From: an uncultured Holophagaceae bacterium
GTDB lineage: Bacteria > Acidobacteriota > Holophagae > Holophagales > Holophagaceae
Assembly (NCBI GenBank): GCA_903927605.1
Contig: CAIYNT010000124.1
Span: forward strand, 1 to 61,539
Direction: 5' to 3'
DNA: 61,539 nucleotides
Program-made: the position numbers and the translations under genes
Part shown: piece by piece, positions 18,124 to 21,179 of the stretch
How positions within the stretch are numbered: position 1 is the first letter of the stretch
How the letters are laid out: each line of letters opens with the position of its first letter
Notes under the pieces: model-generated
The model's database searches: none
Told to the model about the DNA's origin: nothing
What the model saw: the letters and a program-made list of their open reading frames with translations, nothing else

Positions 18124-18211
18124 AAACACGCCCTTCAACCCTCGAAGAATTACCCACCCAATAATTGAACTCGATTTTGGAGATAATGGATCCCGCTCCC
18201 GCGAGGTCCCC

Positions 18212-19378
18212 ATGTCCAAGAAGGAAACACCGCTCTTCCCGTTGCGCAAGGGGCTGCACGCCCGGCAGGCGCATGTGGATCTGCCGCCGGGCACCTTCGA
18301 GGAGGAGCACGCCCGCAACGGCTTTTTCGGCCGCACGACCCACCTCTACCGCCTGCATCCAGTCACGGACTGGACGCGCATCGAAGGCCCACTGCGGCCC
18401 CACAGCTACGACCTGAACGGCCTGAAGCCCTCGGGAGAAGAAGCTGTCCGGTCCTCGATGTTCGGTTCCACGGAATCAGCTTTCGCGCCCATCTGCCTCC
18501 TGCACAATGCGGACGTTGCCCTGCATTGGGTCGCGCCGTCGGCCATGGACTTCTTCTACCGCAACGCCGACGGCGACGATGTCTACTACATCCACGCCGG
18601 AGGCGGGAAGCTGGAGACCACCTTCGGTGCGCTCACCTACGCCACGGGCGACTACCTGGTGATCCCGCGCGGCACCACGTACCGCTTCCTTCCGGATTCA
18701 GCCACCGCCGAAAGCGGGCCAGATGTCGCTCAGCACTACCTGCTCATCGAGAGCTTCAGCGAGGTCACCATCCCCGATCGCAACCAGCTGGGGCCCAACG
18801 CCATCTTCGACCCGGCCATGATCGATACGCCGGAGCTGGAGCCCTACGATGCCACGCCGAAAGAGTGGGCTGTCCACATCAAGCGCGAGAACCAGATCAC
18901 GAAGGTGTTCTATCCCTTCAATCCGCTGGACGTGGTGGGCTGGAAGGGGGATCTCACCGTGTGGCGCATCAACGTGAAGGACATTCGGCCCGTGGTGAGC
19001 GCCCGCTACCACCTGCCGCCCTCGGCCCACAGCACCTTCATCGGGAACAACTTCGTCATCTGCTCCTTCCTGCCCCGGCCCTTCGAGGAGGAGGAGGGCG
19101 CCATGCGCGTGCCCTTCTACCACTCCAACATCGACTACGACGAGGTGCTGTTCTATTCCGCGGGCCACTTCTTCAGCCGGGACGGCATCGGCGCCGGCAT
19201 GGTGACCTGGCACCCCCAGGGCATCCACCACGGGCCCCACCCCAAGGCCATCCCCCTCAGCCGCACCAAGGACCGCACGGACGAAGTGGCGGTCATGGTG
19301 GATGCCTTCAGGCCCTTGAAGGCCACGTCGGCCGCGGAGGCAGTTGAGAATGCCAACTACTGGGCTTCCTGGAAGTAG
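18212..19378 (+). CDS. hmgA: Homogentisate 1,2-dioxygenase
   Basis: Opens the ring of homogentisate to maleylacetoacetate in tyrosine/phenylalanine degradation. 388 residues from the ATG at 18212. It is a double-stranded beta-helix (cupin) protein. DDVYYIHAGGGKLETTFG and GDYLVIPRGTTYRF are typical of the first cupin. The C-terminal metal region shows FYHSNIDYDEVLFYS and HPQGIHHGP, where the family has its Fe(II) His and acidic ligands. A fumarylacetoacetate-hydrolase family gene, the likely end of the same pathway, is 1.8 kb downstream on the other strand. The maleylacetoacetate isomerase and HPPD genes are not in the window. Confidence 0.8.
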   Translation: MSKKETPLFPLRKGLHARQAHVDLPPGTFEEEHARNGFFGRTTHLYRLHPVTDWTRIEGPLRPHSYDLNGLKPSGEEAVRSSMFGSTESAFAPICLLHNADVALHWVAPSAMDFFYRNADGDDVYYIHAGGGKLETTFGALTYATGDYLVIPRGTTYRFLPDSATAESGPDVAQHYLLIESFSEVTIPDRNQLGPNAIFDPAMIDTPELEPYDATPKEWAVHIKRENQITKVFYPFNPLDVVGWKGDLTVWRINVKDIRPVVSARYHLPPSAHSTFIGNNFVICSFLPRPFEEEEGAMRVPFYHSNIDYDEVLFYSAGHFFSRDGIGAGMVTWHPQGIHHGPHPKAIPLSRTKDRTDEVAVMVDAFRPLKATSAAEAVENANYWASWK

Positions 19379-19422
19379 CTGACACATGCCTTTTGCGGGC
19401 GTGATCGCCTCTTCGATAACCC

Positions 19423-19457
19423 CGCTCCAGGCGCTCCCCCCCGGGGCGTCTGGAGCG
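19423..19457 (+). terminator. Hairpin terminator of hmgA
   Basis: CGCTCCAG pairs with CTGGAGCG, enclosing a further C-run/G-run pairing, 44 bases after the hmgA stop. It is a strong stem without a T-run. Confidence 0.55.
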
Positions 19458-19482
19458 GACAACAAGGAGCTGGGGACGAGCC

Positions 19483-19593
19483 CTAGCCCCAGCCGAGATA
19501 ACGGCGCAGGAGCGCCTTCAGATCCATATGAAGGAAGCGCCAGGCGCCGCGATGCTTGCGGCGATCGAGCAGATCTGCGGCAGAGCGTGACAT
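19483..19593 (-). CDS. Tiny basic protein, DRRKHRG family copy 1
   Basis: 36 residues from the ATG at 19593, with GGAG five bases upstream; the frame continues to an ATG at 19722, which would give 79 residues. The C-terminal core DRRKHRGAWRFLHMDLKALL followed by RRYLGWG is shared with the ORF at 20001, which reads DRRKHRGPFRILYMDLKSFM then RRYLRIG. Conservation of about 18 of 26 positions between two separate ORFs in one gap argues for real coding. The product is strongly basic and probably an amphipathic helix. I do not recognise the family and assign no function. Confidence 0.5.
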   Translation of the reverse strand: MSRSAADLLDRRKHRGAWRFLHMDLKALLRRYLGWG

Positions 19594-20000
19594 CGGTACT
19601 CCATACCAGCGTGTGGCAATTAAATCATCGTCATATTTGCTGGTACCGCAAGGCGAAATTAAGGAAAAATCGGCATTGATAGTATTTTCAGCATTTAATG
19701 ATCGTGGATCGAAGGGCCTCATTCACGGACCTTGAGGGGCCCCCCCGGGTCCTGGATCTGCTCCTGGGATCCGTGGGGGAGGACGTGTCCAACTAGCCAT
19801 TGGAATCGATTGCCACGGGGCTGATGTTGTCCTGGACCGTGGTCCCCTGGCGCATGCCGGTCATGGAGGCGGTGGTCTGACTGCATCGGCTGATCTGGAT
19901 GACTGGACGTCCTGGAAACAGAAGAGCCCGCCGCCAAACCAGAAGGAGATCCTCTCCTTTTTGGGGCGACACCCATGGTGGCCGACTGATCGGGGACCGT

Positions 20001-20099
20001 TCAGCCCTGGCCAATTCTGAGGTAGCGACGCATGAAACTCTTCAGGTCCATGTAGAGGATCCGGAAAGGCCCACGGTGCTTTCGCCGGTCGACGTTCAT
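20001..20099 (-). CDS. Tiny basic protein, DRRKHRG family copy 2
   Basis: 32 residues (MNVDRRKHRG...), with a strong GGGGAG ribosome site six bases before the ATG at 20099. It shares the core DRRKHRG-x2-R-x-L-x-MDLK-x3-RRYL with the ORF at 19483, on the same strand about 400 bases away. The N-terminus before the core is only three residues, which fixes the minimal conserved unit. It has no cysteine, signal peptide or membrane segment. It is divergent from mscS at 20301. Function unknown. Confidence 0.55.
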   Translation of the reverse strand: MNVDRRKHRGPFRILYMDLKSFMRRYLRIGQG

Positions 20100-20300
20100 G
20101 ACATCTCCCCTGGAATGGGTAGGCGGCTTGAAAGGTAAAGATGGTGATTTCGACTCCCGGGTGCCAGTCCTGACTCCAAAAAAAACTAGGAAAAGTGAAC
20201 ATGATGATTCACCTTCGGGGGCCGCAGGCCAGGCGCCTCCTGGACCAAGCTCTTGAAATCTCCGGACCGGGCTAAGATACGCTAGCTATCTGGATTCGAC

Positions 20301-21179
20301 ATGACCCTGACCATCATGAACTTGCAGGCTCTGGCCCCCCACGGCATCTGGGAGAAGGCCGAGAAACTTGGCCTGGTGCTCATCACCTGCGTGGCCCTGC
20401 TGTGGGGTGTGTCCCTGGTGGTGCGCGCAGTCCGCCGGGCTGTGGATGACGGCAACGATGCAGTGACTACGGATGCTGAACGGCGGGCGGAGACCCTTGG
20501 TTCAGTGCTCACCAATGCGGCCAGGGTGCTGGTGGTGGTCTTCTTCCTGATGATGACCCTGCAGGAATTCGGCGTGAATATCGGACCGCTGGTGGCGGGC
20601 GCCGGGGTGGCTGGTCTGGCTCTGGGCTTCGGTGCCCAGAGCCTGGTGAAAGACGTGATCAATGGCTTCTTCCTGCTCATGGAGAACCAGTTCGGAGTGG
20701 GCGACATCATCAACGTGGATGACAAGAACAGCGGTACAGTGGAGCGCATGACGCTGCGCATCACGCAGCTGCGGGACCCCGAGGGCAGGGCCCACTTCAT
20801 CCCCAACGGCTCCATTCTCCGCGTGGTGGTCCTGTCGAAGGATTTCGCCCGGGCCCTGGTGGAAGTGGAGGTTGGGTACGGCACGGACCCCGACCGGGTC
20901 TTCCAGGTATTGCGGGAGACTGGGCTGGAGCTGCACAAGGACCGGCCTGACCAAGTGCTCGAACCCACGGAGGTGAAGGGGATCGACACGCTCACCCAGA
21001 CCGGATTCGTCATCCGGACCCTCACCAAGGCGGCTCCCGGGGCCCAGTGGGACGTGGCCCGGGAGCTGCGCCGCCGCATTCTCATCGCCTTCCGCGAAGC
21101 CGGCATCGAGATCCCTTACCCGCAACGGGTCGTGCATCATCGCCACAGAATGACACCGGGAGACACGGCAGAAGATTGA
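20301..21179 (+). CDS. Small-conductance mechanosensitive channel (MscS family)
   Basis: Inner-membrane channel that opens under membrane tension during osmotic downshift. 292 residues. Two or three N-terminal hydrophobic segments (LVLITCVALLWGVSLVV and VLVVVFFLMMTLQEFGV) precede the MscS pore helix VAGAGVAGLALGFGAQSLVK, which has the typical Gly/Ala packing. The cytosolic beta domain (FFLLMENQFGVGDIINVDD, IPNGSILRVVVLS) and an alpha/beta C-terminal domain follow. A TTGAAA at 20253 may be part of its promoter, but the spacing to a -10 box is poor. Confidence 0.93.
   Translation: MTLTIMNLQALAPHGIWEKAEKLGLVLITCVALLWGVSLVVRAVRRAVDDGNDAVTTDAERRAETLGSVLTNAARVLVVVFFLMMTLQEFGVNIGPLVAGAGVAGLALGFGAQSLVKDVINGFFLLMENQFGVGDIINVDDKNSGTVERMTLRITQLRDPEGRAHFIPNGSILRVVVLSKDFARALVEVEVGYGTDPDRVFQVLRETGLELHKDRPDQVLEPTEVKGIDTLTQTGFVIRTLTKAAPGAQWDVARELRRRILIAFREAGIEIPYPQRVVHHRHRMTPGDTAED

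Follow-up and report, generated by a model that had tools for sequence, protein, structure and literature searches.

The 922-base gap between hmgA and an mscS-type channel gene in the 61,539-nt stretch of DNA analysed here (the window, from an uncultured Holophagaceae bacterium) raises the question of whether an interval in which no gene of ordinary size fits is nevertheless occupied by protein genes and, if so, what their products might do. The window is Geothrix-like, with an hmgA that is 90-91% identical to hmgA of several Geothrix and Holophagaceae genomes. An initial annotation, made from the letters alone, had proposed that the gap holds two related minus-strand ORFs of 36 and 32 codons (sORF1 and sORF2), each with a ribosome site and with shared residues at identical spacing. 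Both ORFs and both Shine-Dalgarno-like motifs are indeed present (Table 1), and a BLASTP alignment of the two products runs ungapped over 28 columns with 18 identical and 23 positive residues (41.2 bits; E 4e-13 as a single comparison). When silent and replacement changes between the two copies are compared, synonymous differences are near saturation (15.2 of 17.7 sites) and nonsynonymous ones are few (10.8 of 57.3 sites), so that sORF1 and sORF2 are old paralogues under protein-level selection rather than recent duplicates; no direct DNA repeat of at least 14 nt was found between them. The frame of sORF1 is open further, up to an ATG at 19722 (79 aa), and relatives match it only from the ATG at 19593 onward. 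A ribosome-site motif of the same kind is found in 20 of 26 upstream regions of the related genes described below (group I) and is absent from 6.

Table 1. Features in and around the hmgA-mscS interval, with positions in the window.
Feature	Position	Strand	Size	Remarks
sORF1	19483..19593	minus	36 codons + stop	MSRSAADLLDRRKHRGAWRFLHMDLKALLRRYLGWG; reads 19593 to 19483
sORF2	20001..20099	minus	32 codons + stop	MNVDRRKHRGPFRILYMDLKSFMRRYLRIGQG; reads 20099 to 20001
hmgA (homogentisate dioxygenase)	18206..19378	plus		PF20510, synteny; convergent neighbour marking the locus
mscS-type channel gene	20301..21179	plus		PF00924, PF21088, PF21082, synteny; divergent from sORF2
Shine-Dalgarno-like GGAG	19599..19602	minus		5 nt before sORF1 ATG, by eye
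Shine-Dalgarno-like GGGGAG	20105..20110	minus		5 nt before sORF2 ATG, by eye
Promoter-like TGCCG-N18-CTTG ... GATGAT	19624..19675	minus		upstream of sORF1, common to some relatives
Inverted repeat	19422..19458	unassigned	16-nt arms, 88%	between converging hmgA and sORF1

The suggestion that these ORFs represent a real micro-protein family was borne out by copies elsewhere. When about 5.8 billion proteins were searched, 15 small ones (30-48 aa) came back, each at E <= 1e-10 (for example MSSIDRRKHRGPFRILYMDLKSFMRRYLNIG), one of which (P0002) may be the window's own cluster; P0001 is a close relative of sORF1 (32 of 36 residues alike by eye), and relatives of sORF2 include P0003-P0007. A family profile built from these 15 proteins and the window ORFs was searched against the six frames of 77 Holophagaceae genomes and found free-standing group-I copies in 27 of them (E <= 7.9e-8 per genome) without internal stops, although some of these sequences had been rows of the query profile and the copy in genome G034 is truncated by a contig end. 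The proposed synteny with hmgA and mscS also holds in that the free module (30-38 aa) is encoded at much the same chromosomal locus in most carriers: 24 of the 27 ORFs point at hmgA (17) or a POT/MFS transporter gene (7), at a distance of at most 0.5 kb in 23 cases and of 1.1 kb at L092, and mscS lies on the opposite side, divergent, at 18 of the 27 loci. The other three loci comprise one with mscS only and two with neither neighbour (one at a contig end).

Within Geothrix the free gene is dispensable, since it is absent at the hmgA locus in 8 of 9 named or strain-coded isolates among the loci compared; G. fermentans, G. paludis, and G. campi are among the isolates without it, and G. limicola Red804 carries it (L010; peptide stretch MANGVSLDRRKHRGPFRILHMNFADFVKRFFLRGALRR). 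In a 37-row hmgA tree, every one of the 12 ORF-bearing rows falls inside one clade of 23, and ORF presence needs three changes (3-5 in bootstrap trees). Because well-supported branches of this tree force only one change, a single gain followed by losses is possible. Two copies that retain just the C-terminal half (L126 and L127) look decayed. Two contigs in the set (L021 and L022) are labelled Bacillota and Deltaproteobacteria, yet their hmgA groups with Holophagaceae hmgA and their genomes were placed in the Holophagaceae set, so that these record names look wrong.

The pattern of conservation identifies what is being selected. The module spans about 27 residues, roughly [DE]RRxH-x(3-4)-R-[ILFV]-L-[YFW]-[MI]-D-xxx-[FL]-xx-R-x-L, with H and D varying in the hemerythrin-borne forms described below. 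We compared 28 cores (27 distinct) from 26 loci and the two window ORFs, excluding the truncated G034 copy. Pooled pN is 0.196 against a pS of 0.535 over the 27 distinct cores, pN is below pS in 350 of 351 pairs, and third codon positions account for 3760 changes vs 2134 and 1429 at the other positions. The family thus displays codon-level conservation instead of the frameshifts expected of a spurious one; the module is under protein-level selection, and the free ORFs are protein genes. As the cores were chosen by a pattern demanding R2, R3, H5, G7, and R10, constancy at these positions is partly by construction; DRR, H5, G7, and R10 also occur in 27 of 27 copies found by the profile, for which no pattern was used. 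R22, which lies outside the pattern's demands, is Arg in all 27 cores, whereas positions 4, 17, and 21 show both K and R, from which we infer that the fixed arginines serve specific recognition rather than charge alone.

It is accordingly hardly credible that the conserved thing is an RNA or DNA element and not a protein. Such an element could explain the upstream block common to some relatives and the inverted repeat next to sORF1, but it would not explain why third codon positions change most, why residues are kept and not bases, or why the same protein core is found in three different gene settings, and an Rfam scan of 19300-20350 gave nothing above the gathering score. The block TGCCG-N15-19-CTTG occurs in 10 of 26 upstream regions vs 0.16 expected from dinucleotide shuffles, a count that ignores shared ancestry and uses a pattern chosen after viewing the sequences; together with a GATGAT-like part it occurs in 6 of 26. 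In front of sORF1, TGCCG-CTTG lies at 19675-19649, and a sigma-70 consensus scan found no site at this promoter-like block; the region upstream of sORF2 is of a second type (ttttttttggagtcaggactggc, by eye). The inverted repeat folds at -31.1 kcal/mol (z -2.42, a stability matched by 6 of 200 shuffles) and is possibly a shared terminator of hmgA and sORF1, though it was not among the predictions of a terminator scan. A role as leader or attenuator peptide was rejected, as the genes that come next in this direction are just sORF1 and then hmgA, which converges.

The second setting of the core is on hemerythrins. Weaker profile matches with frames of about 200 aa are hemerythrin-domain proteins that carry the module at the N-terminus (for example ALDRRKNGRFRILYMDFRSFWLRLIL), before a variable linker modelled as unstructured. 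When matches were scored on residues 1-40 of a fusion protein, a search returned 11 proteins, all with a precomputed PF01814 tag, of which ten carry a complete module and one, P0026, just the end of it, and a Pfam scan confirmed PF01814 in four genome-derived module-carrying proteins. The public record of P0026 (L080 1033-1581) begins MDFRSFW, inside the module, and the annotated protein lacks the first 18 residues encoded by the module-bearing frame. When the entire fusion served as the profile, matches at E <= 1e-15 came from 62 of 77 genomes; among the matches listed, nine hemerythrins, forming the top rows, span the module, and the remaining ones begin no earlier than column 27, for the most part near 58. 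The free gene occurs in all nine fusion genomes (9 of 27 carriers vs 0 of 50 others, among the matches listed), an association with a hypergeometric probability of 2.9e-5 computed as if genomes were independent of kinship. Module and bacteriohemerythrin domain (PF01814) are therefore combined in nine proteins in 77 genomes among the matches listed, whereas the window ORFs, which have no Pfam match, lack the domain and the other hemerythrins among these matches lack the module.

In the type-A fusion rows, the N-terminal segment looks more alike than the linker (by eye), and the histidine of the module is lost in most hemerythrin-borne forms. An AlphaFold model of a fusion has a confident four-helix domain, whose best PDB match is DcrH-Hr (E 7.8e-3, probability 1.00), a linker at residues 32-59 with pLDDT < 50, and low confidence in the N-terminal module segment itself. 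The first iron-ligand motif of hemerythrins is usually DxQH, and because the type-B fusions L081, L113, L114, L116, L083, and L162 have DEQY, DEGN, or DEQN at this position, the metal site of these hemerythrins may be altered. Extra ends on hemerythrins as such are common: according to PMC4919030, 56.9% of long O2-binding hemerythrin architectures carry terminal regions for which Pfam offers no clear homologue. Use of the module as an encapsulin cargo tag was considered and rejected: PF04454 is present in 4 of 10 genomes searched and in 3 of 9 with fusions, and it is missing from fusion genomes G026 and G039, with contig C1 covering the whole listed genome, so that encapsulin targeting is unlikely. 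Outside the hemerythrins, a sensor-kinase-like protein (L128, G045:C15) begins SVDRRLGRGMFKILFLPFRAL right before a hydrophobic segment (E 0.049), which is possibly another use of the module and possibly chance. Stand-alone ORFs of 27-28 aa at L120 237-317 (minus) and L076 1492-1575 (plus) are closer to the hemerythrin-type than to the hmgA-locus-type module.

The third setting is in phages. A broader profile found more small relatives, such as MRLDRRTHTRFRILFIDVADLWFRILRPRIFGGAA, with matches in 39 of 93 genomes of the class (E <= 0.005) and 19 of 396 genomes of the phylum (E <= 0.001), counts that are partly by construction because many profile rows came from the same genomes. Among them are genes in phage early regions. 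Ten neighbours from four phage-type loci were scanned and nine match Pfam or PHROGs, among them DUF3164, GemA, a sigma factor, a D12 methylase, an exonuclease, and DUF5131, and eight phage-type loci have one neighbour gene in common. L165, which has both DUF3164 and GemA, is Mu-like as marked by GemA, and common neighbours suggest that the other phage-type loci may be Mu-like as well. Small relatives are also found on six IMG/VR contigs. The ORF start overlaps the upstream gene as ATGA at L178 (by eye), the frame continues well beyond the module at L180, and a hydrophobic stretch follows the module at L170. Near the micro-protein gene, L165 (2128-2964) and seven other phage-type loci encode a conserved phage protein of about 250 aa; its L165 copy, the one scanned, has no Pfam or PHROG match. 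Four loci (L169, L174, L175, and L177) have an ORF of 57-58 aa (REAGTERRALRS..DRRRH..; E 5.8e-4 to 4.9e-3), at three of them adjoining a YchJ-like (SEC-C) gene by eye, that is at best a distant and weakly supported relative of the module. Searching IMG/VR with the group-I profile gave 34 pattern matches of which 0 were confirmed, the phage-type peptide had 8 partial matches in an annotated phage collection (all E >= 3), and tblastn with sORF2 gave one chance match in phages (E 3) and none in plasmids.

That the family had been called unnamed agrees with our searches. The window ORFs have no Pfam match and no NCBIfam match (NCBIfam was run on these two), and 25 members searched at E <= 0.001 gave nothing in Pfam (one stray ARPP-2 in one member, E 0.056) or PHROGs (one stray phrog_19967 in one member, E 0.4); a PDB sequence search gave nothing convincing (best E 0.28). 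Outside Acidobacteriota, the module was found in 0 of 368 and 0 of 191 genomes of two phyla and in 0 of 8 single genomes, in scans that scored few candidates per genome and ran without a positive control. Open-licence literature on Geothrix small proteins, micro-proteins, or smORFs yielded nothing on this family, and DRRKHRG was not found in open-licence literature, which is no proof of absence from print.

What the module does may be approached from its settings. Since the core also fronts hemerythrins and occurs in phages, a portable element for attachment or ligand binding is the probable reading. A point against it is that homology of the chromosomal, hemerythrin, and phage forms rests on 27-38 columns. 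Our preferred reading, to which we give somewhat less than an even chance, sees in both ORFs true micro-protein genes from a portable-module family that encode a putative docking or ligand-binding peptide. In the module, a short helix would come after an arginine cluster; the fixed arginines would grip an anionic partner and the helix would pack against the same partner. Fused to a hemerythrin, the module would bring the O2-binding or di-iron domain to this partner; when free, it would fill or control the same site, and phages would use the module to reach or block it. The peptide is strongly basic as the initial annotation had it (net charge +2 to +11 over 38 small members; +6 and +7 in the window ORFs). 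It had also been called probably helical, and AlphaFold places a helix at residues 11-26 of the free peptide, as a prediction with modest support (mean pLDDT 70.3, pTM 0.27) that is less firm than this wording.

The same charge and short helix would also suit a membrane-surface anchor, with a basic head on acidic lipid and an interfacial helix that tethers a hemerythrin (or nothing, if free) to the inner membrane. The phage-type L170 continues into a hydrophobic stretch, and a bacteriohemerythrin has been reported to supply O2 in vitro to particulate methane monooxygenase membrane fractions (PMC12607906). Yet Lys never takes the place of Arg22 in 27 cores and the free form always has His5, neither of which lipid binding needs, the mean hydrophobicity of the helix is near zero (-0.09 and -0.10 in the two window ORFs), and the 19-residue Kyte-Doolittle maximum of the 38 small members (-0.27 to 1.27) never exceeds 1.27. 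Since the predicted helix is weakly amphipathic and its column moment not significant (0.47, p 0.117), we keep membrane anchoring only as a rival, and an unlikely one. By analogy, the arginines could instead bind a cyclic dinucleotide, making the free form a small sink or receptor and the phage form a sponge. The precedent, described in PMC5677366, is the Cle ARR, an arginine-rich region of 28 residues of which peptides suffice for c-di-GMP binding and which sits mostly on CheY-like domains and, in a small number of proteins, alongside hemerythrin or other domains; 5% of matches carry no known domain. Our module is likewise of about 28 residues, arginine-rich, portable, and found on hemerythrin and domain-free; PDB 6sft shows YVGPDRRRFNSADYKGPRKRKAD, loosely like DRRK-HR-GP-xR...D, and c-di-GMP is probably made in carriers, as all 3 carrier genomes that were searched have 12-14 GGDEF matches apiece. 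However, the tandem [YF]xGP[DE][RK]R is absent from 38 of 38 small members and 20 of 20 fusions (0/58), strict or loose, so that the module is not a Cle ARR member, and none of the 20 fusions has GP within its first 40 residues. The module also differs in its N-terminal position on hemerythrin and its predicted helix and is likened to the Cle ARR in logic only. Phage cyclic-nucleotide sponges do exist (Tad1, Tad2, Acb2, and Acb4) and offer a possible analogy for the phage copies, but the 25 members have no PHROG match at E <= 0.001. We regard second-messenger binding as a decidedly unlikely reading.

The nucleic-acid or ribosome binding raised by the initial annotation, for example in the manner of bTHX, would fit a very basic peptide with fixed arginines, and we take the DRRxxRG-like stretch of the module to resemble this tiny basic ribosomal protein. 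Pfam has a bTHX model, but a scan of 25 members gave no match to it, with nothing at E <= 10 except the stray ARPP-2 already mentioned, and identity with bTHX was rejected; as the N-terminal position on hemerythrin is also hard to explain by such binding, we hold this function to be improbable. Size, charge, a stand-alone gene, and phage relatives would likewise be in keeping with a small toxin or membrane-active peptide, such as a type I toxin, were it not for the fusion to a soluble domain and the lack of any transmembrane-strength hydrophobic stretch in the 38 small members (a set without L170), which leave this very improbable. Returning to the docking or ligand-binding peptide, its most far-reaching form would be a targeting or ligand-binding module of about 27 residues that acts as free micro-protein and hemerythrin tag in one bacterial family and as mimic or sponge in its Mu-like phages, with a ligand that may be a nucleotide second messenger; we think this rather unlikely as a whole.

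The tiny-protein family is thus confirmed as real and apparently had not been described before, and its unusual trait is one core common to a host micro-protein, a hemerythrin, and phage. Besides flagging genes omitted by annotation, this matters because free micro-proteins are usually orphans without a clue to function. Finding the same short core on a domain of known chemistry and in phage early operons turns such an orphan into a testable case and would show that phages and their hosts share a very short protein module.
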